Shown: positions 4,983 to 34,357 of the stretch, one piece after another
How the letters are laid out: each line of letters starts with the position of its first letter
How positions within the stretch are numbered: position 1 is the first letter of the stretch
Source: Celeribacter persicus
Lineage (GTDB): Bacteria > Pseudomonadota > Alphaproteobacteria > Rhodobacterales > Rhodobacteraceae
Length of the DNA: 64,000 bases
Assembly: GCF_003050785.1 (NCBI RefSeq)
Contig: NZ_QAOH01000002.1
Span: 248,001 to 312,000, forward strand
Direction: 5' to 3'
The notes under the pieces: model-generated
The model's database searches: none
Told to the model about the DNA's origin: nothing
What the model saw: only the letters and a program-made list of their open reading frames with translations
Made by a program: the position numbers and the translations under genes

Positions 4983-5480
4983 ATGAGTTTCCGAGACCGC
5001 CTCTCCTACGCCCCCGATGCTGGCACCTATCACGACGGCGCCATGCGCTATATGTTCATCAAGCCCGAAGCCGTGATGGGCATCCTCCACGCCCTGCCGC
5101 CCGAGTTGCGTCCAACCGTGATGGAGGCCATGGCCGAAAGCGTTTTTGTCAACGGCGGCAAGTCGGCACAGACTTACAAAGCGCAGGGTGCCGAGGCCGC
5201 GCAGGCGCTCCTGGATGTGATCCGCGAGACCTCCGGTCAGCTCGGCTGGGGCCACTGGACCCTGACGCTCACGGGCGCGGCGCTAACGGTCGAGGTCGAG
5301 AATTCACCCTTCGCCGAGGGGTTCGGCCCCTCAGACATACCGGTCTGCGCGCCGATCCGCGGCATGCTCCGCGCGGTCTCCGGCATGATTTTCGGGACGC
5401 CTTGCGAAGTGACTGAGACCGCCTGCGCCGCCATGGGTGCGACCCGCTGCACCTTCATCGCCAAACCTAAGGAGGTCTGA
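4983..5480 (+). CDS. Free-standing V4R (4-vinyl reductase) domain protein
   Basis: 165 residues, soluble, no signal peptide. The C-terminal part matches the V4R domain known from BchJ-like proteins and from the sensory half of XylR/DmpR-type aromatic regulators: CEVTETACAAMGATRCTFIA has the three Cys spaced as in that family (about residues 141, 148, 156). V4R domains bind small hydrophobic or aromatic ligands. Here it has no regulator or enzyme domain attached and sits between a TRAP transporter and a FAD oxidoreductase. Its function is not known; a ligand-binding or chaperone role for the operon's substrate is possible. Confidence 0.7.
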   Translation: MSFRDRLSYAPDAGTYHDGAMRYMFIKPEAVMGILHALPPELRPTVMEAMAESVFVNGGKSAQTYKAQGAEAAQALLDVIRETSGQLGWGHWTLTLTGAALTVEVENSPFAEGFGPSDIPVCAPIRGMLRAVSGMIFGTPCEVTETACAAMGATRCTFIAKPKEV

Positions 5481-5483
5481 CAG

Positions 5484-6899: not shown

Positions 6900-7633
6900 G
6901 CCTGCGCGACAAGATCAGGAACCACCAGCCGCTCCGCGGCATCTTCCTCGGCCTGCCCACCCCCATGGCGGTGGAGATCGTCGCGGGGGCCGGGCCGGAT
7001 TTCCTCTGCATCGACACGGAGCACAGCCCGATCGGGCCGGACCTCTTGACCGATATGATCCGGGCCTGCGACCTTGCGGGCATCCCCGCGCTCGTGCGCA
7101 CCCGCTCCGCACAAGCCTTTGACATCGCCGCCGCACTGGATGCCGGCGCGGCGGGTGTGCTGATCCCGCATGTCTCCGATCCGGAAACCGCTGCCGCCGT
7201 GGTCCGTGCCGCCCGCTTTCCGCCCGAAGGCTGCCGTGGCGCAGGTCCTGCGCGCTCTGCAAAATACCTGCGCGACATTCCCGGCTCCATCGCCCGCGCC
7301 GCACGCGAGACCGTGGTCGCGATCCAGATCGAAACCGTCGCCGCCGTGGACCGGGTTGCCGATCTCCTTGCCGTACCCGGCCTCGATCTCGCCTTCATCG
7401 GCCCCGGCGACCTGGGCGTGGATCTTTCGGCCCGTCCCGAGCGCGAAGAAAGTCTGGAGACACTGATCGGCACCGCGCTCTCGGCGACCGAGGCCGCTCA
7501 GATTCCCGCAGGTATTTTCACCGCCGACCGCGAGGCCTCGCGCAACTGGCTGAAGCGACTGGCATTCGTCATCGAAGGTTCGGACGCAATGCATCTCTCA
7601 GAGGCGACGGACACGGCCTTCGCCCCGCTCTGA
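6896..7633 (+). CDS. HpcH/HpaI-type class II aldolase
   Basis: 245 residues, slightly below the usual 250-265. Family motifs are the catalytic His in DTEHSPIGPD, the metal-binding Glu in AIQIETVAAV and Asp in IGPGDLGVDL. Members cleave 4-hydroxy-2-oxoacids to pyruvate plus an aldehyde using a divalent metal. It is the last gene of the GntR-TRAP operon. It ends base-to-base against the stop of the flavin reductase on the other strand. The substrate is not deducible from sequence alone. Confidence 0.9.
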   Translation: MSLRDKIRNHQPLRGIFLGLPTPMAVEIVAGAGPDFLCIDTEHSPIGPDLLTDMIRACDLAGIPALVRTRSAQAFDIAAALDAGAAGVLIPHVSDPETAAAVVRAARFPPEGCRGAGPARSAKYLRDIPGSIARAARETVVAIQIETVAAVDRVADLLAVPGLDLAFIGPGDLGVDLSARPEREESLETLIGTALSATEAAQIPAGIFTADREASRNWLKRLAFVIEGSDAMHLSEATDTAFAPL

Positions 7634-8131
7634 TCAACCGGCTTCCTGCAAGCGATGGAACCGGGCATGGGCGTAGACCAGCGCCTTGCCCGCTTCCGGT
7701 CGCAGCCGCGCCTCCTCGATGCGACCGATGAACACCCGATGACTGCCGTTGTCGCTCTCCGAGGTCACGGTACAGGCCAGCGAGGCCAGCGCAGTGTCGA
7801 GCGACGGCAGCCCCATGTCGAACTCCGACCATGCCCCTTCCGCGAATTTCTCAGCCCCGCGCACGCCGCCCGCCCCGGCAAAGCGCATCGCCAGAGCGTC
7901 ACCGTCCTCGGCCAGAAGCTGCACGGAGAACTGCCCCGCGCGGGTGATCTCGGCACAGGCCTCCACCTTGCGGTTCACACAGATCAGAAGGCTCGGCGGC
8001 TCATCGGTCAGCGAACAGACGGCGGTGGCCGTCAACCCGCGACGCGCCGGACCCGCCCCCACGGTGATCAGAGTCACCGCGCCGGGAAACAGCGCCATGG
8101 AGGTGCGAAAAAGCTCTTTGGTGATCGCCAT
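7634..8131 (-). CDS. Flavin reductase family protein (reductase of a two-component monooxygenase)
   Basis: 165 residues, a split-barrel FMN-binding flavin reductase: GLTATAVCSLTDEPPSLLICVNR is the diagnostic flavin-binding block. It would supply reduced FAD or FMN to an oxygenase, most plausibly the acyl-CoA-dehydrogenase-like monooxygenase at 9109-10302. It is paralogous to the iacG-like gene at 29922. The start at 8131 has AAGGA 8 bases upstream; a longer reading overlaps the LysR gene. It lies 11 bp downstream of LysR in the same direction. Confidence 0.88.
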   Translation of the reverse strand: MAITKELFRTSMALFPGAVTLITVGAGPARRGLTATAVCSLTDEPPSLLICVNRKVEACAEITRAGQFSVQLLAEDGDALAMRFAGAGGVRGAEKFAEGAWSEFDMGLPSLDTALASLACTVTSESDNGSHRVFIGRIEEARLRPEAGKALVYAHARFHRLQEAG

Positions 8132-8142
8132 GTCAGCGTTCC

Positions 8143-9060
8143 TTATCTTCTTGTGTCTTCGGTCAGGGCGCTCACGATCACGCCGCGCAGCCATGTGATC
8201 CCGGGATCGGCGGCGAAGGAGTCATGTACCCAGAGTTTGATGTCGTAGGACGGCAGGTCGAAAGGCAGATCGCGGGTCGCGAAACCTTCGAGCCGTGCGG
8301 CAATGGATTGCGGGAAGATCGCGACATAGTCGGTCCGCCGTATGATCTCCGGCACCACGGTGAAATGGTCGAGCCGGGCCTTGACCCGATAATGAACACC
8401 CATCTGCTGTAACAGTGTGCGCCCCATCTGATAGCCCGTCGCCGCCCGGCTGACATCGAGAAACGAGAGACGGACGAAGCGCTCCTCGGTCAGGGGCTCG
8501 GCAAGCACCGGATGTCCCTCACGAAACAGGCAAACCAGACGGTCAGTGACCAGCAACTGCCCCTGGCACGGGGCCTGTTCGAGATCGGGCAGATAGCCGA
8601 GCGCGAGATCGGCCTGACCGCTGCGGAGCGCCGATTCCATCTCTTCGGGCGGCACACGAAACGAGGTCAGCTCCACATCCGGCGCTTGCTTTTCCAGCAC
8701 GGACAGGATGCGGGCCAGCGAAAAGAACTCCCCCGTGTCGGTCATCGCGATGCGAAACCCGCGGCTTGAGGTGGCGGGCCGAAAACTGCCGCTGTCCTGA
8801 AGCGTCTGTTCCAGAAGCGAAAGCGCCGCCTCGAACGGTTCGCGCAACCGGGTCGCGGCCTCCGTCGGCTCCATCACATTGCCCACCCGCAGGAACAGCG
8901 GATCGTTGAACTGCTCGCGCAGCCGTTTCAACCCGTGCGAGATCGCAGGCTGCGTCAACCCGAGCCGGGTGCCCGCCACCGTCAGGCTGCGCACATCCCA
9001 GATGGTCAGGAACACCTTGATCAGGTTGAGATCGAAACGGGTCGGACGCGGGTCTGTCAT
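8143..9060 (-). CDS. LysR-family transcriptional regulator
   Basis: 305 residues. The N-terminal HTH (about residues 10-70) reads LTVAGTRLGLTQPAISHGLKRLREQF, followed by LFLRVGN and a periplasmic-binding-protein-like effector domain. Unlike most LysR genes it is not divergent from its target but sits in line between the monooxygenase (stop 48 bp upstream) and the flavin reductase (11 bp downstream). No clear ribosome-binding site is visible. It probably senses an aromatic intermediate and controls the minus-strand arm. Confidence 0.88.
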   Translation of the reverse strand: MTDPRPTRFDLNLIKVFLTIWDVRSLTVAGTRLGLTQPAISHGLKRLREQFNDPLFLRVGNVMEPTEAATRLREPFEAALSLLEQTLQDSGSFRPATSSRGFRIAMTDTGEFFSLARILSVLEKQAPDVELTSFRVPPEEMESALRSGQADLALGYLPDLEQAPCQGQLLVTDRLVCLFREGHPVLAEPLTEERFVRLSFLDVSRAATGYQMGRTLLQQMGVHYRVKARLDHFTVVPEIIRRTDYVAIFPQSIAARLEGFATRDLPFDLPSYDIKLWVHDSFAADPGITWLRGVIVSALTEDTRR

Positions 9061-9108
9061 AAGATCAGCGGATCACATTCGGCACGAAATGGAAAGCCGA
9101 TTAGGCCC

Positions 9109-10302
9109 TCAGGGATAGCCGCGCGGCGGCTCAAGCCCCGCAAGCACCCGCCCTGCGGCCTCGATGGTGACCTCAGTCACCGCGGCGTGCTGGGTGACCA
9201 CCATGGCGTCGCGCAGATGGCGCTGCATCGGGTTGTGTTTCGAAATCACCCCCATGCCCGCGATTGTATAGCAGCGCTGCACCACCTCGGCCCCACGCTG
9301 CGCCGCATTGGTCGCACTCAGCCGCAGCATGTTGTTCTCCTCAAGCGATACCGGATCACCGCGCATCAGACTGTCCCAGGCCTGCTCTGCGGCATCGTAG
9401 AAAAATGCCCGCGCACCGCGCAGTTTCGCCTCGCATTCCGCCAATCCCTGTAGGAAATAAGGCCGGTCGCAAAGCCGGGAATGTCCCACCGCGATCTTCG
9501 CCGCGCCAGAGACGGATGTCGCCGCTTCAATGGCCGCCCGCGCCAGACCGAGGTTGCAGGCGGCATGAACCTGCGCCTGATAGGCCATGGCGGGGTATCT
9601 GTAGAGTGGCTCGTCGATCACGCCAGGCGCGCCGCGTTCGCAAATCCAGAGATCGGAATAGAACTTGTCCGTGACCGTGGTGTCATGGCTGCCTGTGCCC
9701 TGCATGCCGGAGACCTCCCAGGTCTCGATGATCTCCACCTCATCCGCCGGGCAGACCGCCATCATCACGGTCGGCGGCGCGTCGGGCTCGGAGCCCTGTG
9801 GCACGCCCTCGATACCGACGCCGATCCAGTCCGCCCCCATGCAGCCGGAGGCGAATTTCCAGCGCCCGGAGACATTCCAACCGCCCTCCACGCGCTCGGC
9901 TTTATGCACCGGGTGCAAACCTCCCGCGAAAACCTGATCCGGGCTGTCCTTGTACATGATCGCTTGCGCCTCTTCCGGCAGAGCCGCCGTATAGGTGTTT
10001 GCCGAGCCAAAAGCCGCGATCCACGCCGCCGAGCCGTCTACCGTGCCGATGGCATCGACCATCTTGAGGAAATGATGCGGCGCGATGGCGTCGCCACCGA
10101 ATTTCGCGGGGGTCGCGGAGCGGAAAATCCGCGCCTTTTTCATCAGATCGACAATGTCACGCGGAATGTGGCGCAGGGTTTCGAACGTTTCACGCCGCGC
10201 GGCGATCTCCGCCAGAAGCGTCTTGAATTCCGGGGTTTCGGTGAGCGTCGCCGGATCGAAAGCAACCTCGGGTTCGCGGAGCTTGGCAGCGGGAAGGGTC
10301 AT
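9109..10302 (-). CDS. Acyl-CoA-dehydrogenase-fold flavin monooxygenase (IacA / IifC-like)
   Basis: 397 residues from the ATG at 10302, which has AAAGGA upstream. It belongs to the flavin-dependent monooxygenases built on the acyl-CoA dehydrogenase fold (HpaB/HsaA/IacA/IifC group). It is clearly paralogous to the iacA-like gene at 34358: both share LRHxPxDxV near the N-terminus, PAxFGGD, GSHD after the middle domain, the block RFPAMA/RYPAMAYQAQV, and an identical C-terminal GYP. Known relatives oxygenate the indole ring of indole or indole-3-acetate with reduced flavin from a partner. The flavin reductase at 7634 is the likely partner. Exact substrate unproven. Confidence 0.82.
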   Translation of the reverse strand: MTLPAAKLREPEVAFDPATLTETPEFKTLLAEIAARRETFETLRHIPRDIVDLMKKARIFRSATPAKFGGDAIAPHHFLKMVDAIGTVDGSAAWIAAFGSANTYTAALPEEAQAIMYKDSPDQVFAGGLHPVHKAERVEGGWNVSGRWKFASGCMGADWIGVGIEGVPQGSEPDAPPTVMMAVCPADEVEIIETWEVSGMQGTGSHDTTVTDKFYSDLWICERGAPGVIDEPLYRYPAMAYQAQVHAACNLGLARAAIEAATSVSGAAKIAVGHSRLCDRPYFLQGLAECEAKLRGARAFFYDAAEQAWDSLMRGDPVSLEENNMLRLSATNAAQRGAEVVQRCYTIAGMGVISKHNPMQRHLRDAMVVTQHAAVTEVTIEAAGRVLAGLEPPRGYP

Positions 10303-10431
10303 GTGCGTGTCCTTTGTTTTGTCCCTCTCATGACAGCGCAAATCATTTCATAACTCAAATTTATTATCATAATTTTACGAATAGAAATACCTAATTTATA
10401 TGGCGTTATCTATTGTTATAAATACAAAATA
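10303..10431 (-). promoter_or_regulatory. AT-rich promoter region of the monooxygenase gene
   Basis: A distinctly AT-rich island upstream of the minus-strand monooxygenase and beyond the stem-loop that ends the SDR transcript. It carries a direct repeat GTTAT at 10405-10409 and 10415-10419 (10-bp period) and the 12-mer AAATACAAAATA at 10420-10431, which recurs upstream of the ABC importer at 21140-21151. This suggests the monooxygenase has its own promoter. Confidence 0.5.
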
Positions 10432-10457
10432 CCCTTCACCCCGTTCGGAGCGAAGGG
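10424..10457 (-). terminator. Probable rho-independent terminator after the SDR gene
   Basis: Read on the minus strand, arms CCCTTC (10452-10457) and GAAGGG (10432-10437) enclose a further CCG/CGG pairing, and the stem is followed by TATTTT. It lies about 30 bp past the SDR stop and would end the cupin-FAH-SDR transcript. Confidence 0.6.
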
Positions 10458-10486
10458 CAGACTTGCTTTGACCCTCATGCAATTCT

Positions 10487-11293
10487 TCAGAGAATGCCGG
10501 TCTCTTTCGCCACACGCCGATAACCCGCGCCAGCCGTAAATCCGCCGTCGATGACGAAATCCTCGCCGGTGATGAACGCGGACGCATCTGAGGCGAGAAA
10601 CAGCACGAGCTGAGCCACCTCATCGGCCTCCCCCGCGCGGCTCATCGGCGTCATCCCGATCATCGGGCCGAGGTGTGGCGAGTTGCGATTGAGATCGGTG
10701 ACGATCAGACCGGGACAGATCGCATTGACACGAATGCCATCTTCGGCAAACTCCATCGCCGCCGTCCGGGTCAGCCCCCGGATCGCCCATTTCGACGCCG
10801 TGTAGGCCGGGTCGTAATGGCCGGAAAAGGCGCTGTTGGACGAGATGTTCACGATAGAACCGCCCCCCGTCTCCGCCATTAGAGGCGCGGCCAGCTTCAC
10901 ACCGATGAAGGCGCCTGTCGCGTTGACTTCGACCACCTTCTTCCACTCATCGACAGACATATCCGTGATGGTCTTGCGGTTGATAATACCCGCGTTGTTC
11001 ACGAGGATGTCGAGCCGCCCGGTCCAGTCGCGGATCAGCGCCAGAGCCTCCAGCCATCCGGCCTCGGAGGTCACGTCGAGCTTGAGGAATTTCACATCCC
11101 GCCCTTCGGCAGCGAGGCGCGTGGCCAGAGCCTCGCCCTCATCCACCAGCACATCGCAGATCAGCACAGAAGCCCCCGCCGTGGCGAGCAATTCGGCCTC
11201 GACCGCACCCTGCCCGCGCGCAGCACCTGTGACCAGTGCCGTCTTGCCGGAAAGATCGCTCATTGCGTCCTTGAGTTTCGCGAAATCGCTCAT
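10487..11293 (-). CDS. Short-chain dehydrogenase/reductase (SDR), left module
   Basis: 268 residues, classical SDR: TGAARGQG cofactor motif near residue 20, NNAG, catalytic Ser in NISSNSAFSG, and YTASK. By analogy with the IifB step of indole degradation it could oxidise an indole dihydrodiol or hydroxy-oxindole intermediate. The first ATG overlaps the upstream FAH stop by ATGA. An internal ATG at residue 11 (11263), where MSDLSGK begins, also has AAGGA upstream, so the true start is uncertain. Confidence 0.88.
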   Translation of the reverse strand: MSDFAKLKDAMSDLSGKTALVTGAARGQGAVEAELLATAGASVLICDVLVDEGEALATRLAAEGRDVKFLKLDVTSEAGWLEALALIRDWTGRLDILVNNAGIINRKTITDMSVDEWKKVVEVNATGAFIGVKLAAPLMAETGGGSIVNISSNSAFSGHYDPAYTASKWAIRGLTRTAAMEFAEDGIRVNAICPGLIVTDLNRNSPHLGPMIGMTPMSRAGEADEVAQLVLFLASDASAFITGEDFVIDGGFTAGAGYRRVAKETGIL

Positions 11294-12132
11294 GCCTGCA
11301 CCATCCTTTGTCTTTGTTCACCGAGGCCCGTGGCCCCGAGCGTCACCACCTGACCGGGTTTGAGAAACACCGGCGGTTTCATTCCAAGCCCAACCCCCGG
11401 CGGCGTACCGGTGGCGATGATGTCACCGGGTTCCAGCGTCATGAATTGCGAAATATAACTGACCAGCGTGGCAACACCGAAGATCATTGTGCGGGTGTTG
11501 CCGGTCTGGCGGCGCTCACCATCGACGTCGAGCCAGAGGTCGATATTCGCGATATCGGCAATCTCATCTTTCGTCGCCAGCCACGGACCCACCGGGCCGA
11601 AGGTGTCATGCGACTTGCCCTTGGTCCATTGCCCGCCACGCTCCGACTGAAACGCCCGTTCGGAGACGTCATTTACCAGAACATAACCCGCCACATGGTC
11701 GAGCGCTTCGGCCTCGGACACATATTTCGCGCGGGTGCCGATGACGACGCCCAGTTCGACCTCCCAATCGATCTTTTCCGAACCGCGCGGAATCTCCACA
11801 TCGTCATTCGGCCCACAGATCGCGTTCGACGCCTTGGCAAACAGGATCGGCTCCGCAGGCGGCTCCTTGCCGGTTTCCTTGGCGTGATCGGCATAGTTCA
11901 GACCGACGCAAATGAATTTTCCCGGACGTGCAATTGCAGACCCGAAACGCGGGTTGCCCTCGACCTTCGGCAAGGACGCAGGGTCGAGCGCGGCCAGAGT
12001 TGCAAGCATCGAAGGGGCCAGAGCGGCCCCGTCAATGTCGGACAGATGGGCGGAGAGATCGCGGATCGCGCCCTCCCCGTCCAGCAGGCCGGGCTTTTCG
12101 GCCCCGGCCTCACCATATCGCACCAGCCGCAT
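11290..12132 (-). CDS. Fumarylacetoacetate hydrolase (FAH) family protein
   Basis: 280 residues. FAH catalytic-domain features: CVGLNYADHAKETG, the metal-binding Glu pair in IDWEVELGVVIG, the FGPVGPWLATKDE block and DIIATGTPPGVGLGM. Members hydrolyse C-C bonds of acylpyruvates, decarboxylate oxaloacetate or act on ureidoglycolate. It lies between cupin (2 bp) and SDR (4-bp overlap), so it acts in the same pathway, perhaps on a ring-opened product or side chain. Confidence 0.88.
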   Translation of the reverse strand: MRLVRYGEAGAEKPGLLDGEGAIRDLSAHLSDIDGAALAPSMLATLAALDPASLPKVEGNPRFGSAIARPGKFICVGLNYADHAKETGKEPPAEPILFAKASNAICGPNDDVEIPRGSEKIDWEVELGVVIGTRAKYVSEAEALDHVAGYVLVNDVSERAFQSERGGQWTKGKSHDTFGPVGPWLATKDEIADIANIDLWLDVDGERRQTGNTRTMIFGVATLVSYISQFMTLEPGDIIATGTPPGVGLGMKPPVFLKPGQVVTLGATGLGEQRQRMVQA

Positions 12133-12134
12133 GA

Positions 12135-12560
12135 TCAGGCCCGACGGTAGCCTTCCAGCGCCTCGTCCGGCACATCCGGCAGGTTGGTCACAAGGTTGTC
12201 CGGCGTCCGGCAGGTCAACCAGACCAGTTCTTCGGTCGTGGACATGTTCACCTCGACATGCGGCATGAAAGGCGGCACGAAGACGAAATCGCCCTCATAC
12301 ATGTCGATATATTCCTTGTAATCCTCGCCGAAATAGATCCGGCCATGGCCCTTGAGCACATACCCCCCGGTTTCGCATTCCTCATGATGATGCGGCGGAG
12401 AGCGGTGGCCCGGCTCATTGGAAACGCGGCCGAACCAGATTTTCGTGGCCGGCGTGTGCTGCGGGCTGACGCCGGATTTACGGACGCATTCGCCCGACTG
12501 CAACGTGGACTCGTCGAGCTCTCCGGCCCGGGTGACGACGGGAACGACTTGATCGCTCAT
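12135..12560 (-). CDS. Cupin-domain protein
   Basis: 141 residues from the ATG at 12560, which has GGGAGG upstream. The first cupin motif is visible as HRSPPHHHEECETGGYVLKGHG and the second as FVPPFMPHVEVNM, giving the usual His/Glu metal site. Single-domain cupins of this size act as dioxygenases, isomerases or ligand sensors; the sequence does not decide. First gene of the minus-strand arm, so it is transcribed from the divergent promoter region next to it. Confidence 0.85.
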   Translation of the reverse strand: MSDQVVPVVTRAGELDESTLQSGECVRKSGVSPQHTPATKIWFGRVSNEPGHRSPPHHHEECETGGYVLKGHGRIYFGEDYKEYIDMYEGDFVFVPPFMPHVEVNMSTTEELVWLTCRTPDNLVTNLPDVPDEALEGYRRA

Positions 12561-12948
12561 TATGGGGATCCTCCCTGTGGAATGTGGCCTTTGGAATGTG
12601 GCTCGTTCCCGCCCGCCTTCTGCGTGCGGGAACAACATGAGCCAGCTTGCATATTTTATTTTAAACTTCAATCTTTTTTATTCTGGGAATTTCATCAATC
12701 TCCAGATGCAAAACTTAAGAGAGTCGCCGCAACATGGGGCTCCACCTTTTCAAAATCACCCAAAATACCGACTATGCAGGCGCAGAAACAGAAATTTTCG
12801 TCTATAATTTATGCAAATGCATAGAATTTTCCTCTTTGCATTTCGAGAATTTCTCTTTTCTTAATTTTTGGACTTGAAGTAAAAAATACATGCGCTTGCA
12901 TACATCTAGCCCAAAACGCGACCAAAACAAACCATCAGGGAGCACATG
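12561..12948. promoter_or_regulatory. Divergent regulatory region between the two catabolic arms
   Basis: Nearly 390 bp without a gene. The cupin side holds a tandem repeat GGAATGTGGC (12579-12588 and 12593-12602) and an 8-bp inverted repeat GTTCCCGC/GCGGGAAC (12605-12633). The AT-rich cyclase side holds two exact ATGC-N4-GCAT palindromes (12811-12822, 12890-12901) and a one-mismatch copy (12774-12785). These are candidate operators for the MarR at 15322 or the LysR at 8143. Confidence 0.6.
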
Positions 12949-13737
12949 ATGACCACTCAGGACACCCTCGCACAGCTTGCGACCGGCCTGCTTTCCGGCG
13001 CAATCAAGGTGATCGACTGCGCCGCCGTTCTCGGCCCAAACACCCCGCTTCTGAAACTGCCGCCGGAGATCGCCGACGACACGCCACCGATCGAAATTCA
13101 CAAAATCTCCGAATATGGCGACCGGGGGCCGTTCTGGGCGTGGAACTGGCTGAAACTCGGCGAGCACTCCGGTACGCATTACGACGCGCCGCATCACTGG
13201 ATCACCGGCAAGGATTACCCGGACGGCGCGGTGGACACGATCGACCCGCAATATTTCGTCGCCCCCGCCAATGTCATCGACTGTTCAAAAGAGGCCGCCG
13301 CCGACCCTGATTTCCTTTTGACCAAGGACGCGCTGATCGCCTGGGAAAAAGAGCACGGCGAAATCAAGGAGGGCGAATGGGTGCTGATGCGCACCGACTG
13401 GGATCAGTATAACGAAGATGCCGACAAATTCCTCAATGCCAATGAGACCGGGCCGCACACGCCGGGGCCGTCCGTCGATTGCATCGAATACCTGATGGAG
13501 AAAAAGGCGCTCGGCTGGGGTACGCAATGTGTGGGCACCGACGCGGGAGCTGCCGGTGGGTTCGAACCGCCCTACCCGGCGCATAACCTGTTGCACAAGA
13601 ACAACCGCTATGGCCTCGCCTCGCTCACCAATCTCGACAAGCTGCCGCCCAAAGGCGCGATCTTCATCACAGCTCCGCTCAAGATCGAGAACGGCACCGG
13701 CTCGCCGGTGCGCGCTCTGGCGCTGATCGCAGAGTAA
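12946..13737 (+). CDS. Cyclase-family metal-dependent hydrolase, isatin-hydrolase-like
   Basis: 263 residues. The cyclase/kynurenine-formamidase motif HxGTHxDxPxH is intact as HSGTHYDAPHHW, with metal ligands His74, His78, Asp80 and His84. From memory of the family, the surrounding text (RGPFWAWN before the motif, WITGKD after it, and the C-terminal NRYGLASLTNLDKLPPKGA) is closer to the isatin hydrolase of Labrenzia than to kynurenine formamidase; an alignment is needed. Isatin hydrolase opens isatin to isatinate. ATGATG at the start leaves one codon of ambiguity. First gene of the plus-strand arm. Confidence 0.8.
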   Translation: MMTTQDTLAQLATGLLSGAIKVIDCAAVLGPNTPLLKLPPEIADDTPPIEIHKISEYGDRGPFWAWNWLKLGEHSGTHYDAPHHWITGKDYPDGAVDTIDPQYFVAPANVIDCSKEAAADPDFLLTKDALIAWEKEHGEIKEGEWVLMRTDWDQYNEDADKFLNANETGPHTPGPSVDCIEYLMEKKALGWGTQCVGTDAGAAGGFEPPYPAHNLLHKNNRYGLASLTNLDKLPPKGAIFITAPLKIENGTGSPVRALALIAE

Positions 13738-13750
13738 GGGAACGCCGCGC

Positions 13751-15325
13751 ATGACCGCCCCAAAAACCACTCCGGACATTGCGATCATCGGCTCCGGCAT
13801 CAACGCGCTCACTGCGGGGGCGATGCTGGCCAAATCCGGCAAGAACGTCGCGATCTTCGAACGTGAAGACGTCGCGGGTGGCTGTATGCGCAGCGAAACC
13901 TTGGCCGAGGGGGTCACATACGATCCCCTCGCCACAACCTTCGTTCTTTGGGTGACCGGGGCGGCGCACGGGGTCTTGGGCGAGGACCTTGCGCGTCATG
14001 GCGTGGAATTCTGCGCCACCGATACGCCCACGGGCGTCCTGCTCCCTGATGGCAGGGCGCTCACCTACAAAATGGATCGCGCCACCAATGTCGCGGCTTT
14101 CAATGCGTCCCATCCCGGCGATGGCGACCAACTCGCCGCCGATCTCGACGCCTTCGCAGCCGACGCGGAATTGCTGTTCGGACTGATGGGCGGCGATCCG
14201 TGGTCGAAATCCACCGCCAAACTGCTCGCCAAAGAAGCGTGGAAACGCAAACCACACGGGCTGGCGGCCACCATGGGCGGCGCATTGCAGCCCATGCGCG
14301 GCTGGCTTGAGACCTCGTTTGCGTCCGATCTGAACCGCGCGCTCTGGGCACCGTGGTGCCTGCACGCGGGACTTGGTCCCGAGGCGTCGTTTTCCGGCCA
14401 GATGGGTCAGGTGATCGGCTTTGCCCTCGAACTCGCAGGAGCACCTCTGGTGAAAGGCGGCGCGGCCAATATGGTGCGCGGGCTGATCGCCATCATCGAG
14501 GAGCACGGCGGCACGGTCACGACCGGGGCCGAGGTGGCGGAAATCGTGATCTCGAACGGCACCGCGACCGGGGTGAAACTCGCCTCCGGCGAGGTGGTGA
14601 AAGCGGGCAAGGTGCTGGCCTCGACCACCCCGAACCAGCTTTATGAAAAACTCGTCCCTGTGCCGGAGCGCTGTAACGACCTGCGCAAATACCGCTACGG
14701 CAAGGGCGATTTCCAGCTGCATTACCTGTTGAACGGCCCCGTTAAGTGGAAAACGGAAGGGCTTGAAAGGGTGCAACTTCTGCACATCACGCCGGGATTG
14801 GACGGGGTATCGAAAGCGGGCAACGAGGCCGAGCGCGGCATGTTGCCCGAGGTGCCGACGATCTGCGTCGGCCAACCCTCCGCCGCCGATCCGACCCGCG
14901 CGCCCGAGGGCCAGTCGGTGCTCTGGCTCCAGCTCCCCGAAGCGCCCCGCATCGTCAAGGGCGATGCCAAGGGCGAGATCGACGCGCCCGCTGACGGCCA
15001 ATGGACCGAGGCCCTGCGTGAGACCTATGCCGACCGGATCGAGGCCATTCTTGCAAACCACATCGGAGGCTTCCGCGACCAGATCGTCACCCGCCGGGCG
15101 GTGTCACCTGCCGATCTCGAAGGCTACAATATGAACCTTGTCGGCGGCGATCCTTATGGTGGAGCCTGCAACCTCGAACAGTTCTTCCTGTGGCGACCGT
15201 TTGCCGGCAGCAAGCGCCACGACACAGGCGTGAAGAACCTCTATCACATCGGCGCCTCGACCCATCCGGGACCGGGTCTTTCGGGCGGATCGGGTTTCCT
15301 GACCGCAAAGGAGCTGGGCGCATGA
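13751..15325 (+). CDS. FAD-dependent oxidoreductase, phytoene-desaturase-like (copy 1)
   Basis: 524 residues. An N-terminal dinucleotide fold gives IIGSGINALTAGAMLAKSG and FEREDVAGGCMR, as in CrtI and amine oxidases. The C-terminal FAD-binding part ends PGPGLSGGSGF. It is paralogous to the gene at 19550: both have VGQPS..DPTRAPEG, KGDAKGEI and NLVGGD in the same order. The substrate is unknown; an oxidase or dehydrogenase for a reduced indole intermediate is one option. The stop overlaps the MarR start by ATGA. Confidence 0.85.
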   Translation: MTAPKTTPDIAIIGSGINALTAGAMLAKSGKNVAIFEREDVAGGCMRSETLAEGVTYDPLATTFVLWVTGAAHGVLGEDLARHGVEFCATDTPTGVLLPDGRALTYKMDRATNVAAFNASHPGDGDQLAADLDAFAADAELLFGLMGGDPWSKSTAKLLAKEAWKRKPHGLAATMGGALQPMRGWLETSFASDLNRALWAPWCLHAGLGPEASFSGQMGQVIGFALELAGAPLVKGGAANMVRGLIAIIEEHGGTVTTGAEVAEIVISNGTATGVKLASGEVVKAGKVLASTTPNQLYEKLVPVPERCNDLRKYRYGKGDFQLHYLLNGPVKWKTEGLERVQLLHITPGLDGVSKAGNEAERGMLPEVPTICVGQPSAADPTRAPEGQSVLWLQLPEAPRIVKGDAKGEIDAPADGQWTEALRETYADRIEAILANHIGGFRDQIVTRRAVSPADLEGYNMNLVGGDPYGGACNLEQFFLWRPFAGSKRHDTGVKNLYHIGASTHPGPGLSGGSGFLTAKELGA

Positions 15326-15768
15326 TCGACCGGCCCGAGGAGCTTGAGGAGTTCACCCCCTACCTGATGAACCGCATCATGGCGCGCTACAACAAGGGCG
15401 TCGAGGCGGCTTTGAAAGAGGTTGGCGTGTCGGTCGCCCAAATGCGGGCGCTCGCCGTTCTGGCCGAGGGCGGTCCTTGTACGATCAACGAGCTTTCCGT
15501 GATGACGGTGATCAAGCAATCGACGCTCTCACGCACACTGGATGCGATGGAGGCGGCCGGGCTGATCCGCCGTGAGGCCGGGGAGAACGACAGTCGTATC
15601 CGCAAGATCCACCTGACCCAAACGGGGAAAGCCGCCTATCAGGCTGCCTGGCCCGCGATGGAACACATGCGCGACACGATGCTCGCCGCCCTCTCGGAAG
15701 AGGAACGCGAGACACTCAAACACATGCTGTCGCGGGTACTGCACGACATCCGTCACCACGATTTTTAA
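15322..15768 (+). CDS. MarR-family transcriptional regulator (left module)
   Basis: 148 residues. The winged helix reads INELSVMTVIKQSTLSRTLDAMEAAGLIRRE with the basic wing ENDSRIRKIHLTQTG. The start at 15322 is set by the ATGA overlap with the upstream oxidoreductase; a longer reading runs inside that gene. MarR proteins control other auxin and indole catabolic loci by releasing DNA on binding the aromatic ligand. The ATGC-N4-GCAT elements at 12811 and 12890 are candidate binding sites. Confidence 0.9.
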   Translation: MIDRPEELEEFTPYLMNRIMARYNKGVEAALKEVGVSVAQMRALAVLAEGGPCTINELSVMTVIKQSTLSRTLDAMEAAGLIRREAGENDSRIRKIHLTQTGKAAYQAAWPAMEHMRDTMLAALSEEERETLKHMLSRVLHDIRHHDF

Positions 15769-15839
15769 AGACAAAAGCCCACGCAAGGGCAAACGCACCA
15801 CCGCCTGTGACACAGGCAAACCCATCAAGGAGACCACCG

Positions 15840-17984
15840 ATGGCCGAAAGATCCTTCGCCAAGGAAGTCCAGAAACTCAAGAAAGGTAACGGGGAGGTCT
15901 TCACAGGCGAAGGCATCCTCGGCATCACCAAGGCATTGCTCGAAAACGGTGTCGGCTATGTCGGCGGCTATCAGGGCTCGCCGATCTCGCACCTGATGGA
16001 CGTTCTGGCGGATGCACAGGAAATCCTCGGCGAGCTGGGCGTCCATTTCGAGGCCTCCGCCAACGAGGCCACCGCCACCGCCATGCTCGCGGCCTCGGTG
16101 CATTACCCGATCCGCGGCGCCGTGACCTATAAATCCGTCGTGGGGACCAACGTCGCCTCCGATGCTTTGTCCAACCTCGCCTCGGGCGGCGTCACCGGCG
16201 GCGCGCTCATCATCGTCGGCGAGGATTTCGGCGAAGGCTCCTCGATCATGCAGGAACGCACCTATGCTTTCGCGATGAAATCGCAGGTCTGGATGCTCGA
16301 CCCGCGCCCGAACCTTCCGCGAATCACCAAGGCGGTGGGCGACGGTTTCGACCTCTCGGAAGCCTCGAACACGCCGGTGATGTTGCAGGTCGGCATCCGG
16401 TCCTGCCACGTCCACGGCCATTTCACCGCGAAGGACAACAAGCGCCCCGCGATGACCGTCTCGGACGCATTGGAGAACCCGCGCCGCGATCTCAACCGCA
16501 TCGTCCTGCCGCCCGCGACCTACCTGCACGAACAGGAAAAGCTCACCAAACGCCTGCCCGCCGCGCAGAAGTTCATCATGGAGCGCGAGATCAACGAGCG
16601 CTTCGGCAAGGAAGACGCCAAGGTCGGTCTGATACTTCAGGGTGGCAGCTACAACACGGTGATCCGGGCGCTTAACCGGCTCGACCTCGCCGATCTCTAT
16701 GGCGACACGGACGTCGACATGCTGGTGCTGAACTGCATTTACCCGCTGGTGGATGAGCAGATCATGGACTTCTGCGAGGGCAAGGACGCGGTTCTGGTGA
16801 TCGAGGAAGGCCACCCGAATTACATCGAACAACAGATCGCCACCATGCTCTACAAGCGCGGCAAAACCGTGAAGCTCGAAGGCAAGGGCATCCTGCCGAT
16901 GGGCGGCGAATACACCGGTCAGGTGATGGTCGACAGCCTCGGGGCCTTCTTCGCGCAATACGCGCCCTCAATGCTGCCGGTGGCGAAAACCGCCACCAAC
17001 GAAGAGCCCGTCGCGATCCCCGATCTGTCGAAAACCCTGCCGGGGCGTCCGCCGGGGTTCTGCACCGGCTGCCCGGAACGACCCATTTTTGCCGCCACGA
17101 AACTGGTGGAGGAAGAGTTGGGCGAGCACCACATTTCCTCCGACATCGGTTGTCACCTGTTTTCGATCATGCCGCCCTTTGACATTGGTGCGACGACCAT
17201 GGGCTACGGCCTCGGCCCCGCCTCCGCCGCCGCGTTTCACAACGAGAACAAGAAGGGCCGTCGTTCGATCTCTTTCGTGGGCGATGGCGGGTTCTGGCAC
17301 AACGGTTTGACCAGTTCGGTCGGCAACGCGGTGTTCAATAAATCCGACAACGTGATCGTCATCGTCGACAACTTCTACTCGTCCGCGACCGGGGGGCAGG
17401 ACATCCTGTCGTCCCGCGCCGTCAACAAAACGAAACAGACGCAGAACTCCATTGTCGAGGCCTGCAAGGGCATGGGCGTGAAATGGGTGCGTCAGGTGGA
17501 TCGCACCTATGACGTGACCAAAATGCGCGACACGTTGAAAGAGGCGCTGACCACCGAGGAGGAAGGCCCGAAAGTCATCGTCGCCTCTTCCGAATGCATG
17601 TTGAACAAACAGCGCCGGGTGAAGCCGGAGATGGCCAAGGCCGCCAAGGAAGGCAAGCGCGTCGTCAAGCCGCGTTTCGGTGTCGATGAAGATGTCTGCA
17701 CCGGCGATCACGCCTGTATGCGGCTTTCGGGTTGTCCGTCCCTGTCGGTGAAGGACACCGGCGATCCCCTGCGCGACGATCCGGTGGCGGCGATCGACCA
17801 GACCTGTGTCGGCTGTGGCAACTGTGGCGAAGTGGCGGATGCCGCCGTGCTCTGCCCGTCGTTCTATCAGGCAGAGGTCGTCACCAACCCGACCGCGACA
17901 GAGAAACGCCGCGCCGCGCGCGCCTCGAAAATCATCTCCTGGCTGCAAAGCCGCCGCGACGCGAAACGCGTGGCCTTTGCCTGA
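15840..17984 (+). CDS. Indolepyruvate:ferredoxin oxidoreductase-like alpha subunit (IorA-like)
   Basis: 714 residues; AAGGAG precedes the ATG. Order of domains: N-terminal pyrimidine-binding TPP domain with GYQGSPISHLMD, a middle domain, a C-terminal TPP domain with SSDIGCHLFSIMPP and the GDGGFWHNG diphosphate motif near residue 481, then two ferredoxin-like clusters after residue 615 (CTGDHACMRLSGCP and CVGCGNCGEVADAAVLCP). It would decarboxylate an aryl 2-oxoacid and form an acyl-CoA, passing electrons to ferredoxin. Neighbouring genes make isatinate a candidate substrate besides indolepyruvate. Confidence 0.9.
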   Translation: MAERSFAKEVQKLKKGNGEVFTGEGILGITKALLENGVGYVGGYQGSPISHLMDVLADAQEILGELGVHFEASANEATATAMLAASVHYPIRGAVTYKSVVGTNVASDALSNLASGGVTGGALIIVGEDFGEGSSIMQERTYAFAMKSQVWMLDPRPNLPRITKAVGDGFDLSEASNTPVMLQVGIRSCHVHGHFTAKDNKRPAMTVSDALENPRRDLNRIVLPPATYLHEQEKLTKRLPAAQKFIMEREINERFGKEDAKVGLILQGGSYNTVIRALNRLDLADLYGDTDVDMLVLNCIYPLVDEQIMDFCEGKDAVLVIEEGHPNYIEQQIATMLYKRGKTVKLEGKGILPMGGEYTGQVMVDSLGAFFAQYAPSMLPVAKTATNEEPVAIPDLSKTLPGRPPGFCTGCPERPIFAATKLVEEELGEHHISSDIGCHLFSIMPPFDIGATTMGYGLGPASAAAFHNENKKGRRSISFVGDGGFWHNGLTSSVGNAVFNKSDNVIVIVDNFYSSATGGQDILSSRAVNKTKQTQNSIVEACKGMGVKWVRQVDRTYDVTKMRDTLKEALTTEEEGPKVIVASSECMLNKQRRVKPEMAKAAKEGKRVVKPRFGVDEDVCTGDHACMRLSGCPSLSVKDTGDPLRDDPVAAIDQTCVGCGNCGEVADAAVLCPSFYQAEVVTNPTATEKRRAARASKIISWLQSRRDAKRVAFA

Positions 17985-17995
17985 GGACACATACC

Positions 17996-19546
17996 ATGAA
18001 CATGCAAGCCAAACCCATCATCGCCCGCCGCTCTCCCGGTCCCGACGGGGAAAAGGTCATCACACTCGCGGCCCTTGCTGTCGGCGGTCAGGGTGGTGGC
18101 GTTCTCACCAACTGGATCGTCGATGTCGCCGAATTGAACGGCTATAACGCGCAATCCACCTCGGTCGCGGGCGTGGCGCAGCGCACCGGTGCCACGATCT
18201 ATTACGTCGAGATGTGCCGCGATACGGGCCGCCAGCCGGTCTTCGCGCTCTCGCCCGCCGTGGGCGATGTGGACATTCTCATGGCCTCCGAGCTGATGGA
18301 AGGCGGGCGCGCCATCATGCGCGGGTTTGTGACCCCCGGTCGTACCACGCTCATCGCCTCCACCCACCGTATCCCCGCCGTGTCGGAGAAAATCGCCCCC
18401 GGCGACGGACGCGCCAACGGGCCGGAGGTGATCGCCGCCATGGACATCGCCGCCGATCATGTTGTGGCGTTCGATATGGAAACCGTCGCGAAACAGGCGG
18501 GATCGGTGATTTCCTCGTCGCTTCTGGGCGCTCTCGCAGGCTCCGGCGCATTGCCTTTCCCCCGCGAAAGCTATGAAAAGGTCATCCGCAAATCGGGTCG
18601 GGGTGTCGAGGCCTCTCTGCGGGCCTTTGGTGAGGCTTATGAAATCGCAAAGGGCAACAAACCCGCGCCGGTTTTCGAAGAGACCCCGGTCAAGCCCGTC
18701 CCGGTACTCAATGTGCCCAACAAGCTCAAAACCAAATGGACCGCACTTGAAAAGCGCCTGACCGCCCTGCCCGCCGAGGTGCAGGAGATGGCCGGTCTCG
18801 GTCTCCGGAAGGTCGTGGATTATCAGGACGTGGACTACGGCGCACAGTTCCTCGATATGCTGGACGAGATCGTGGCGCTGGATGCCGCCCCCTATGAGAT
18901 GAGCGTCAGTGCCGCAAAATATATCGCCCGCGCACTCTGTTATGACGACATCCTGCGCGTCGCCGACATCAAGACCCGTGCGAGCCGGTTCGAGCGCGTC
19001 AAGGATGAGGTCGTGGTGAAGGACGATCAGGTCCTCATGCTCACCGAATATTTCCACCCGCGCTTCGAAGAATTCACCACCACGCTACCGAAGGGCTTGG
19101 GCAAATGGGTGCAGAGCAAAAAGGGCTTCGAGGCGTGGTACAGCAAGCGGTTTGACAAGGGCCGCCGCATCCGCACCGACTCTTTGCGCGGCTTCCTGAT
19201 GCTCTGGCTCGTCTCCTCCCTGCGCCCGATGCGCCGCCGCCTCCTGCGCCATGAAAGCGAAATGGCCCATGTGGATCGGTGGTTCGCGACTGTGAAAGAC
19301 GTGGCCAAAACCGACCGGGCGCTGGCCACCGAGGTTCTCGCCAATTACCGGCTGATCAAGGGGTATTCCGATACCCACGCACGCGGGCTTTCGAAATTCT
19401 CCCGCGTCATGGGCGCGCTCGACATGCTCAAAGGCCGCCAAGACGCCGCCGACTGGATGCGCCGCCTGCGCACGGCTGCACTCGAAGATGAAAAGGGCAC
19501 GGCGCTCGATGGAGCGCTTGCCACGATCAAGAGCTTTGCGGGGTGA
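17996..19546 (+). CDS. Indolepyruvate:ferredoxin oxidoreductase-like beta subunit (IorB-like, with C-terminal extension)
   Basis: 516 residues, far longer than archaeal IorB (about 200). The first 200 form the POR gamma-type domain with GGQGGGVLTNWIVD and STSVAGVAQRTG. Residues about 240-510 are the extra helical domain found in the long proteobacterial form. The ATG at 17996 follows GAGGACAC; it starts 11 bp after the alpha subunit. The two subunits together make one enzyme. The next gene begins 3 bp after its stop. Confidence 0.88.
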   Translation: MNMQAKPIIARRSPGPDGEKVITLAALAVGGQGGGVLTNWIVDVAELNGYNAQSTSVAGVAQRTGATIYYVEMCRDTGRQPVFALSPAVGDVDILMASELMEGGRAIMRGFVTPGRTTLIASTHRIPAVSEKIAPGDGRANGPEVIAAMDIAADHVVAFDMETVAKQAGSVISSSLLGALAGSGALPFPRESYEKVIRKSGRGVEASLRAFGEAYEIAKGNKPAPVFEETPVKPVPVLNVPNKLKTKWTALEKRLTALPAEVQEMAGLGLRKVVDYQDVDYGAQFLDMLDEIVALDAAPYEMSVSAAKYIARALCYDDILRVADIKTRASRFERVKDEVVVKDDQVLMLTEYFHPRFEEFTTTLPKGLGKWVQSKKGFEAWYSKRFDKGRRIRTDSLRGFLMLWLVSSLRPMRRRLLRHESEMAHVDRWFATVKDVAKTDRALATEVLANYRLIKGYSDTHARGLSKFSRVMGALDMLKGRQDAADWMRRLRTAALEDEKGTALDGALATIKSFAG

Positions 19547-19549
19547 ATC

Positions 19550-21094
19550 ATGGATGAAATCGTCCTGATCGGAGCCGGGATCAACGGACTTGTCGCCGCC
19601 GCCGAGCTGGCGGTGCGCGGCAAGAAGGTTCGTATTCTGGAACGCGGCCCGACCCCCGGCGGTGCGGTGCGGACCGAAGAGCTGACGCTTCCCGGCTTTC
19701 GCCATGACATAGCTGCGATGAACCTGTCGATGTTCGCAGGCTCCGCCTTCATGGCCGCCCATGGCGACGAGATGGCGAAACACGGCATGGAATTCGTTCC
19801 CATCCCCCGCCCCTTCGCGCAGGCGATGGAGCCGGGCGATTACCTTGGCGTCTCGACCGATCTGGAGGAAACCCTCGCCACCTTCCATTCCGAGACCGAC
19901 AAGACGACGTGGAAGCAGATGATGTCGGATTTCCCCGCACAGGCGGCGGTGATCGGCGGGCTTCTCGGCACACCGATGCGACGTGGGCCGCTGTTGAAAT
20001 TCCTCTGGAAGACGTGGCGGCAGATCGGCACAGCGAAAATGCTTGAGACCATGCGTTTCCTGCTCACCTCGCCGCGCGCATGGTTGGAAGACACGTTCGA
20101 AGACCTGCGCCTGCGCACCGCGCTTTCGACATGGGGCCTGCACATCGACTTTGCCCCGGACATCGCGGGCGGCGCGATTTTTCCTTATCTCGAAGGCATG
20201 GCCGGACAAGCCATGGGTATGGTGATCGGCAAGGGCGGCGCGGATGTGGCAACGCGGGCACTTGTGTCGATGATCGAGGCCCATGGCGGGCGGATCGACT
20301 GCGATACCGAGGTGACCGAGATCCTGCACGCAGACGGTCAGGTTACGGGGGTGATCGCAAAGGATGAAAAGATTGAAACCTCAACCATTATCGCCTCCCT
20401 CGCGCCGAAACACCTGCTGCGACTGATCGGTGGCTCTTCCGGCAATGCGCGTTACGATCAGGGCCTCGCCAAATTCCGCCACGCGCCGGGAACGATGATG
20501 GTGCATCTGGCGCTCGATGCGCCGGTGCCGTGGATCGCGGAGGCGCTCCAGGACTATGCTTATGTCCATATCGGACGTTCCATCGACACGGCCGCCGCAA
20601 CCTATACGCAGGCGATGGCCGGGCTTTTGCCGGAAACGCCGCTGCTGGTCGTCGGACAACCCTCGCTCTTCGACCCGACCCGTGCGCCCGAGGGCAAGCA
20701 CACGCTCTGGGTGCAGGCGCGCGTCCTGCCCGCAGAGATCAAAGGCGATGCAAAAGGCGAAATTTCCGCGAAAAACTGGGACGAAGCGAAAGAAGCCATG
20801 GCCGAGCGTGTGCTCGATCTGATCGAGGAACAGGCCCCCGGTTTCCGTAGCCACATTCTCGCCCGCCATGTGGTCTCGCCCCTCGATCTGGAAACGGAGA
20901 ACCCCAATCTCGTCGGCGGCGATCAGGTCTGCGGCTCGCATCACCTGACTCAGAACTTCCTGTTTCGCCCCGTTGCAGGCTTTGCCGATGGACACACCCC
21001 GATCAAAGGGCTGTCACTGATCGGAGCGGCAAGCTGGCCCGGAGCCGGCACAGGCGCGGGATCGGGTCACTTTGCCTCACAGATGATCAAATAG
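19550..21094 (+). CDS. FAD-dependent oxidoreductase, phytoene-desaturase-like (copy 2)
   Basis: 514 residues, GAGINGLVAAAELAVRG at residues 8-24 and ERGPTPGGAVR, then a C-terminal GAASWPGAGTGAGSGHFAS flavin segment. Paralogue of the gene at 13751; together they flank the MarR and IOR genes. It starts 3 bp after IorB-like and is the last catabolic gene before the importer operon. Function unknown beyond FAD-dependent oxidation or isomerisation. Confidence 0.85.
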   Translation: MDEIVLIGAGINGLVAAAELAVRGKKVRILERGPTPGGAVRTEELTLPGFRHDIAAMNLSMFAGSAFMAAHGDEMAKHGMEFVPIPRPFAQAMEPGDYLGVSTDLEETLATFHSETDKTTWKQMMSDFPAQAAVIGGLLGTPMRRGPLLKFLWKTWRQIGTAKMLETMRFLLTSPRAWLEDTFEDLRLRTALSTWGLHIDFAPDIAGGAIFPYLEGMAGQAMGMVIGKGGADVATRALVSMIEAHGGRIDCDTEVTEILHADGQVTGVIAKDEKIETSTIIASLAPKHLLRLIGGSSGNARYDQGLAKFRHAPGTMMVHLALDAPVPWIAEALQDYAYVHIGRSIDTAAATYTQAMAGLLPETPLLVVGQPSLFDPTRAPEGKHTLWVQARVLPAEIKGDAKGEISAKNWDEAKEAMAERVLDLIEEQAPGFRSHILARHVVSPLDLETENPNLVGGDQVCGSHHLTQNFLFRPVAGFADGHTPIKGLSLIGAASWPGAGTGAGSGHFASQMIK

Positions 21095-21223
21095 GTCGAA
21101 AATCCGGAAAAATATGCCTGACTTGCATCTTTATGCTTTAAATACAAAATAACTGGACCCAAAGTAAATCCGACAATCGAGTCCGGAAAACGGACCGGAG
21201 ATCGCCAACAGGAGAGACACGAA
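21095..21223 (+). promoter_or_regulatory. Promoter region of the ABC importer operon
   Basis: An AT-rich stretch with GCAT-CTTT-ATGC (21125-21136), a TGC/GCA arrangement just before it, and the 12-mer AAATACAAAATA at 21140-21151 shared with the monooxygenase promoter region at 10420. The ATGC/GCAT half-sites resemble those upstream of the cyclase, though spacing and order differ. Confidence 0.4.
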
Positions 21224-22765: not shown

Positions 22766-22777
22766 TCGCGAAACTCT

Positions 22778-22813
22778 GCCCGGTGGCTGCTCCCCTTGCC
22801 ACCGGGCTTTTTT
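22778..22813 (+). terminator. Strong rho-independent terminator/attenuator inside the ABC operon
   Basis: Perfect 10-bp arms GCCCGGTGGC (22778-22787) and GCCACCGGGC (22798-22807), a 10-base loop and six T residues (22808-22813). It lies between the binding-protein gene and the first permease, so most transcripts should stop here, giving excess binding protein. Confidence 0.85.
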
Positions 22814-22829
22814 CCATGAAGAGACCGAT

Positions 22830-29898: not shown

Positions 29899-29921
29899 AA
29901 AACGCCACGCCGCGATGCGCA

Positions 29922-30425: not shown

Positions 30426-30428
30426 GGC

Positions 30429-31391: not shown

Positions 31392-31393
31392 CG

Positions 31394-33923: not shown

Positions 33924-33946
33924 GTCGTCCTCCTTACATTGCGGAC

Positions 33947-34309: not shown

Positions 34310-34357
34310 CTCTCTGGTCCTCTCTGAAGGAAAATCTTTGGAATATGCCTCGGAAGG

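Follow-up and report, generated by a model that had tools for sequence, protein, structure and literature searches.

Within a 64,000-nucleotide window of the Celeribacter persicus genome (assembly GCF_003050785.1, contig NZ_QAOH01000002.1, positions 248,001 to 312,000), we analyzed a putative indole-catabolic island at window positions 7634–21094. All of the genes that the original prediction had named there, working from the letters of the DNA, are real, in that they are present as 12 intact open reading frames. On the minus strand lie genes for a flavin reductase (7634–8131; PF01613, E 1.9e-33), a LysR regulator (8143–9060), an IacA-family flavin-dependent monooxygenase with an acyl-CoA-dehydrogenase fold (9109–10302; 40% identical to the IacA encoded elsewhere in the window), a short-chain dehydrogenase/reductase (SDR; 10487–11293; PF13561), an FAH-family hydrolase (11290–12132; PF01557, and NF053535 at 428 bits versus a cut-off of 500) and a small cupin (12135–12560; PF07883). 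Divergently, on the plus strand, are genes for a predicted isatin hydrolase of the cyclase family (12946–13737), a CrtI/CrtO-like flavin adenine dinucleotide (FAD) oxidoreductase (CrtI1, 13751–15325; TIGR02734 at 117 bits, under the cut-off of 238), a MarR regulator (15322–15768), an IorA-type subunit with thiamine pyrophosphate (TPP) and Fe-S domains (15840–17984; PF02775), an IorB-type subunit with DUF6537 (17996–19546; NF006179 at 678 bits, over the cut-off of 348) and a second CrtI/CrtO-like FAD oxidoreductase (CrtI2, 19550–21094; TIGR02734 at 128 bits, again under 238). Ten of the 12 genes were assigned by family matches and MarR by PDB sequence matches; the LysR assignment rests solely on 47–54% identity to annotated LysR-type genes, and a LysR gene adjoins the monooxygenase gene also in four related loci (L022, L113, L114 and L118).

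In phmmer searches of the PDB, the cyclase matched isatin hydrolase B of Labrenzia aggregata (4j0n) over residues 2–261 with 435.6 bits and other isatin hydrolases with 285.7–291.8 bits, versus 24.8 bits for the best kynurenine formamidase. The metal site HxxxHxD plus a further His is present as HSGTHYDAPHH (residues 74–84), and the WXW/FXW and GLAS/GLQC motifs given as isatin hydrolase signatures in passages of PMC6117287 both occur, as WAWNW and GLAS; the Labrenzia enzyme carries the same signatures. These findings argue strongly that the cyclase belongs to the IHB-type isatin hydrolases (hereafter IH), for which Mn-dependent hydrolysis of isatin would be expected by homology. They bear out the earlier description of the cyclase as isatin-hydrolase-like, and the comparison of scores places it away from the kynurenine formamidases. 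As a separate observation, some IH-like matches were found in open frames of ~670–706 codons, far exceeding the length of the enzyme (G155:C4, G098:C104, G187:C1, G171:C72, G042:C1 and G338:C16); these could be either fusion proteins or merely long open frames.

Gene neighborhoods were counted in the best 80 of 150 confirmed cyclase relatives (loci labeled L; the closest, L002, is 96% identical), with flanks of up to 10 kb, and these 80 loci consequently lean to close kin. We counted by tblastn, with identity thresholds chosen for this analysis, because a simple gene caller missed genes (it called IH in 64 of 86 loci). Genome profiles were drawn from 390 evenly sampled genomes of the order (Rhodobacterales; labeled G, the present genome being G000) that were at least 90% complete, with thresholds of E ≤ 1e-40 for IH, E ≤ 1e-150 for IorA and for the bifunctional monooxygenase ABMA described below, and E ≤ 1e-90 for the island monooxygenase. 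(Note that the two sets of counts are not independent, since some of the 80 loci come from at least 3 of the 390 genomes.) Of the 80 relatives, 68 have IorA within 10 kb of IH and 62 have IorB; where the flanks are full (56 loci), IorA was found in 52. It shares the strand of IH in 67 of the 68 loci and starts 53–3134 bases downstream of it in 66. At the genome level, IH occurs in 53 genomes and IorA in 60, five of which have only 50–55% matches, leaving 55 at 60% identity or more. IH and close IorA occur together in 52 genomes, as against 7.5 expected; one genome has IH without IorA (G338) and three have IorA without IH (G089, G184 and G289). IH and IorA distances also correlate (r 0.74 over 71 loci, with species kinship uncorrected). 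Because the locus counts place IorAB, and not the monooxygenase, with IH, we take IH and IorAB to be the core of the system. When the gene set of the original prediction is sought in other genomes, the IH–IorAB core recurs (IorA in 68 of 80 loci), and the monooxygenase set is rare (2 of 390 genomes).

The two subunits have the expected domains, namely a TPP domain and the motif CxxCxxCx8CP in alpha and a POR domain in beta, and related genes are found well beyond the order. A plasmid of Tsukamurella (Actinomycetota) holds, within ~18 kb, homologs of IH (46%), IorA (62%), IorB (41%), ABMA (48%) and a ligase (50%), together with RidA (35%), FAH (41%), cupin (71–72%), SDR (35%), a nitrilase-type gene and two NAD(P)/FAD oxidoreductases that are 40% and 22% identical to CrtI1. 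Caballeronia SBC1 has IorAB, a thioesterase, ABMA, FAH, IH (47%) and a longer, different cupin within 13 kb. In Azospirillum, the gene for IorA (69.6%) has ABMA, Rieske oxygenase genes and a gene for an AMP-binding ligase as neighbors, and IH is encoded on a separate plasmid. In Variovorax boronicumulans (L111), IorA (56%) and IorB (40%) adjoin an alpha-hydroxyacid oxidase and an enolase-type protein, annotations with which a role for this IorAB relative on arylglyoxylates would fit. A Delftia plasmid (L138) has two IorA copies flanking an IS1071 element, in a region with genes for the degradation of aromatics.

The partner that would tie this core to further metabolism is encoded on another contig, C16 (ABMA, a bifunctional FAD monooxygenase–old yellow enzyme protein at C16:68931–71213, 87% identical to the copy in L082). 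We take ABMA to be 2-aminobenzoyl-CoA monooxygenase/reductase, an identity supported by its context (RidA and the isatin setting), and abm to be the gene name of its pathway. The C16 block comprises genes for an SDR, a StyA-type monooxygenase, a flavin reductase, a thioesterase, ABMA, a second SDR, a second thioesterase, RidA, a hotdog protein and a MarR regulator; its StyA-type monooxygenase is 83% identical to an Alloyangia copy that NCBI places by name in the styrene/indole monooxygenase family. In Alloyangia and Thalassovita the same ABMA block abuts SDR-FAH-cupin and IH. Among the 80 IH loci, ABMA is found in 23, RidA in 15, a StyA-type monooxygenase in 6 and a CoA ligase in 3 (with ABMA only in L036). 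ABMA occurs in 153 of the 390 genomes, and these include all 53 of the IH genomes and 54 of the 55 IorA genomes.

Taken as a whole, the island very probably serves isatin-centered indole catabolism. In such a pathway IH would open isatin to isatinate (2-aminophenylglyoxylate), IorAB would decarboxylate isatinate oxidatively with coenzyme A (CoA) to give 2-aminobenzoyl-CoA, and the latter would enter the aerobic abm pathway on C16 without the usual CoA ligase. Judged by its genomic setting and by the chemistry typical of 2-oxoacid oxidoreductases, IorAB is likely to be the isatinate oxidoreductase of this scheme. The original prediction had an indole compound pass through isatin to isatinate and beyond; the isatin-centered part and the IH step are supported, and the core of IH and IorAB, predicted to lead to 2-aminobenzoyl-CoA, differs from a free-standing indole-to-isatin operon.

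The fate of the CoA ligase bears directly on this scheme. Passages of PMC6221969 attribute a 2-aminobenzoyl-CoA pathway to Cupriavidus sp. SHE, with which C16 shares an ABMA-type bifunctional enzyme, RidA and thioesterases; the difference is that searches of the present genome found no 2-aminobenzoate-CoA-ligase-like gene (best identity 31%; best TIGR02262 score 168 versus a cut-off of 375), and a ligase match is likewise absent from the 20 kb read around ABMA on C16. At a threshold of E ≤ 1e-95, which is our own choice and looser than the curated cut-off, 189 of the 390 genomes have a member of the benzoate-CoA-ligase family; matches just under the curated cut-off were taken as abm ligases because many of them are encoded a few kb from ABMA (as in G003:C16 and G158:C39). 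A ligase-family match at this threshold is found in 149 of the 153 ABMA genomes and missing from four (G000, G084, G157 and G303), all of which carry IH and IorA. The best homolog of the Alloyangia ligase in these four genomes is 31–33% identical (135–171 bits), versus 69–81% (855–1021 bits) in G168, G158, G378 and G223, the other genomes with an ABMA of 83–88%, of which only G223 has IH.

An alternative is that IorAB acts early in a tryptophan or indole-3-acetic acid (IAA) route, oxidizing indole-3-pyruvate to indoleacetyl-CoA, with IH acting later and a ligase activating anthranilate. The family name of IorAB and an iac cluster 8 kb away would suit such a route, as would aminotransferases, of which class V-like genes stand close to IH in 13 of 80 loci and a class I-type cluster occurs in 6 of 86, and the ligase match found in 48 of the 52 genomes that combine IH, IorA and ABMA. 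Yet no aminotransferase was recognized among the genes at 4983–26383, IorA starts less than 3.2 kb downstream of IH in all but two of its 68 loci, a ligase match is missing from four ABMA genomes, and a related IorAB stands in an arylglyoxylate-like context. We therefore consider the early role of IorAB unlikely, and favor its action on isatinate.

Several observations nevertheless weigh against the isatinate route. The IorA score for the IOR_alpha equivalog (TIGR03336), 305.9 bits, is under the cut-off of 650.9, so that family membership does not set the substrate, and of the seven stretches with a distant IorAB that were examined, five contain no IH (L110 of Ruegeria pomeroyi, L111, L115, L136 of Hydrogenophaga and L138 of Delftia). 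In the present genome ABMA and the island are on different contigs; NCBI names ABMA a bifunctional salicylyl-CoA 5-hydroxylase/oxidoreductase, and some of the ABMA matches are just 48–49% identical. The curated cut-off for the benzoate-CoA-ligase family is passed in only 92 of the 390 genomes, and the Fisher p value for the ligase-less ABMA genomes is 0.012 with kinship uncorrected. Since 48 of the 52 genomes hold a ligase match, the ligase argument comes down to four genomes, of which G000 and G157 belong to one genus; moreover, the acyl-CoA ligases of 31–33% identity could substitute for the abm ligase, and the genome has an anthranilate-dioxygenase-like gene (444.6 bits versus a cut-off of 671.9). 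Finally, according to passages of PMC12633357, the Variovorax genes iadC-K2 without iadAB restore anthranilic acid, so that an indolepyruvate ferredoxin oxidoreductase (IOR) would not be strictly needed after isatinate in that organism. In favor of the isatinate route, the same passages report that C8H7NO3 and C7H7NO build up strongly in strains overexpressing iadC-K2, the strong build-up of C8H7NO3 being seen only upon overexpression of this region, which by its naming is without iadAB; we infer that C8H7NO3 is isatinate.

The iad loci of Variovorax and Bradyrhizobium, described in parts of PMC9613470 and PMC12633357 as taking IAA to anthranilate via isatin, share with the island IOR genes (iadA/iadB, by family type), a cyclic-amidohydrolase-type step and MarR control. 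Unlike them, the island ties IH–IorAB to a CoA-dependent abm route and has the CrtI pair and a peptide-type importer in addition. An iad-type Rieske oxygenase (iadCDE) was not found among 13 proteins scanned at 5484–22765, and the Rieske genes that do occur in the window belong to the iac cluster.

Both isatin and isatinate have been reported as intermediates in the degradation of indole and auxin. The passages seen from the open-licence literature name no enzyme acting after isatinate, nor do they assign an IOR to isatinate. By gene order, near-complete co-occurrence with IH and the ligase-less abm pathway of four genomes, IorAB is a candidate for this step. We lean, if slightly, toward the broader view that the IorAB proteins of this clade act as isatinate:acceptor oxidoreductases that bypass free anthranilate and the ATP-dependent ligase, in a modular cross-phylum pathway with swappable front ends, possibly including, in the present genome, one that yields isatin and pyruvate from an indole-3-lactate-derived aldol. 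If true, this would define an ATP-saving route with a small gene set to test, and a group of proteins that in aerobic bacteria carry the annotation indolepyruvate ferredoxin oxidoreductase would be given a new function. It would also provide two genome markers for the pathway, the pair of IH and IorAB, and a palindromic site upstream of IH.

This site, TATGCAnnTGCATA, occurs as operator-like palindromes at 12773–12902, between the cupin gene and IH, with one perfect copy at 12810 and copies with two mismatches each at 12773 and 12889. When the sequence preceding IH (300 bases at most) was searched in the 80 other loci, TATGCAnnTGCATA with at most two mismatches was found in 60, versus 0.7 expected from dinucleotide shuffles; in a control stretch inside IorA it was found in 1 of 68 loci. 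A looser form of the pattern has 8 matches in the whole window against a shuffle mean of 3.6, a mild enrichment given that 5 of 100 shuffles reach 8. A promoter and terminator scan of 12500–13000 found nothing. By its predicted binding at these sites, MarR probably regulates both of the divergent units, cupin-FAH-SDR on one side and IH-CrtI1-MarR-IorAB-CrtI2 on the other. Shared regulation of the island and the C16 abm genes is not supported, because no copy of TATGCAnnTGCATA, even with two mismatches allowed, was found in the stretch of C16 that holds the abm genes.

Two groups of island genes are separable from the core. The plus-strand unit extends past 21094 into a five-gene peptide-type ATP-binding cassette (ABC) importer (21224–26383, all on the plus strand), comprising a substrate-binding protein (21224–22765; family match), two permeases (22830–23837 and 23830–24690) and two ATPases (24687–25577 and 25574–26383), the last four assigned by homology to annotated transporter genes. 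CrtI1 is present in 58 of the 80 IH loci and CrtI2 in 56; the substrate-binding protein is present in 49 of the 80 loci and missing from all 20 that lack both CrtI genes. CrtI1, CrtI2 and the importer are thus one separable add-on to the core. The model of CrtI1 (pLDDT 86.6) has the carotenoid desaturase 4rep as its best fold match, with lower scores for nicotine and amine oxidases; because the matches span these classes, the fold does not fix the substrate. The second add-on consists of SDR, FAH and cupin, each present in 15 of the 80 loci and always in the identical 15. ABMA is more common in these loci (10 of 15) than in the others (13 of 65), which suggests a role for SDR-FAH-cupin near the abm end. 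The cupin model was uninformative (pLDDT 36.1) and its PDB sequence matches were weak; even the Tsukamurella copy is 71–72% identical to it. The two CrtI-like proteins, FAH, cupin and importer have no assigned step, as might be expected if the cyclase acted on some other cyclic amide and the island degraded a different N-heteroaromatic compound or an aryl-2-oxoacid. However, the close match of IH to solved isatin hydrolases, with the full signature, and its co-occurrence with ABMA in every IH genome make such a substrate very improbable, and speak for isatin.

Farther along the window, at 29422–37501 and 8 kb beyond the island, lies an iac cluster that is complete, encodes an IacR-type MarR of its own and adjoins TRAP-transporter-like genes, so that two indole systems share one window; as the original prediction held, the island is probably an indole module separate from iac. 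For each of iacA to iacI, two or more of the iac clusters from Klebsiella, Acinetobacter and Thioclava provided a match, and for iacR one did; among these clusters, an Iac protein is named in the Klebsiella record only. The IacA of the cluster is the 40% relative of the island monooxygenase, and iacB, iacC, iacD and iacI are not in the island (iacB and iacI lie at 33947–37501). The two MarR proteins also have different neighbors in the PDB, the island MarR being nearest to 3cjn and 7kym, and the iac-cluster MarR to 7kua, followed by 7l1i and 7l19. Passages of PMC9613470 identify 7kua as the IacR of P. putida, with 7l1i and 7l19 from the same study, and describe the iac pathway as ending in catechol.

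The remaining island genes form a rare third add-on, the monooxygenase set. The monooxygenase lies near IH in 1 of the 80 loci, as does LysR, and the flavin reductase in 7. In a tree of 15 rows (midpoint-rooted for drawing; without L114, L127, L128 and Acinetobacter IacA), a 100/99 split places the island monooxygenase on one side, with enzymes of Burkholderiaceae and a Rhizobium relative encoded in an iac-like cluster, and on the other side the IacA of the window with the enzymes of Thioclava, Klebsiella and Delftia; relatives lie beside iac genes in L124, L125 and L131. Close copies have IH at a distance of 7 kb in L022 and of ~14 kb on the La6 plasmid; for the copy in G205, no IH was found in the 20 kb read.

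These counts bear on whether monooxygenase, reductase and SDR together make dioxindole from indole, with the other genes yielding isatin and anthranilate, as in an iif-like pathway. The genes are there, as they are, by description, in the iif/ind cluster with its anthranilate-level product, and IifC and IacA oxidize indoles according to parts of PMC6221969 and PMC7225977; the iif cluster is described in the former as having no gene for isatin. In the relatives of the island, however, SDR and oxygenase are not linked. SDR travels with FAH and cupin (15 of 80 loci), not with the monooxygenase, which groups with IacA-like enzymes, and C16 already has a StyA-type styrene/indole monooxygenase. We therefore rejected the iif-like grouping, together with the earlier proposal that oxygenase, reductase and SDR form one arm, and regard an iif-like function as highly doubtful compared with an isatin-centered one built on IH and IorAB.

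Left of the island, and adjoining it on the plus strand (4983–7633), is a set of genes for a V4R-domain protein, a putative accessory of a front end (4983–5480; 65% identical to an annotated V4R homolog upstream of IH in the La6 plasmid locus L083), a GlcD-like FAD-linked 2-hydroxyacid oxidase (5484–6899; TIGR00387 at 252 bits, under the cut-off of 567.9) and an HpcH/HpaI-type pyruvate aldolase (6896–7633; TIGR02311 at 139 bits, under the cut-off of 368.8). The FAD oxidase is near IH in 6 of the 80 loci, the aldolase in 5 (with the FAD oxidase) and V4R in 2. Passages of PMC7225977 report that the IacA of C. glathei oxidizes indole-3-lactic acid to a product that IacE does not convert. Tentatively, the island monooxygenase with the flavin reductase, 2-hydroxyacid oxidase and aldolase might convert indole-3-lactate via dioxindole-3-pyruvate to isatin and pyruvate. 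The monooxygenase has linked FAD oxidase and HpcH genes in the window, in Caballeronia L114 and, ~14 kb apart, on the La6 plasmid; this front end remains a suggestion because the linkage was not seen in the other 10 of 12 monooxygenase loci. The front ends that would deliver isatin look interchangeable, comprising the CrtI pair with the importer, the StyA-type enzyme on C16 and the IacA-like set.

Two further arrangements near IH were noted. A luciferase-type monooxygenase accompanies the FAD oxidase in L027, L028, L033 and L065, with HpcH in three of them, as if it replaced the IacA-like oxygenase. In Sulfitobacter indolifex (L086, 12863–13825), a gene of the dihydrodipicolinate-synthase family, which includes pyruvate aldolases, directly precedes IH and is possibly a non-homologous counterpart of the HpcH aldolase.

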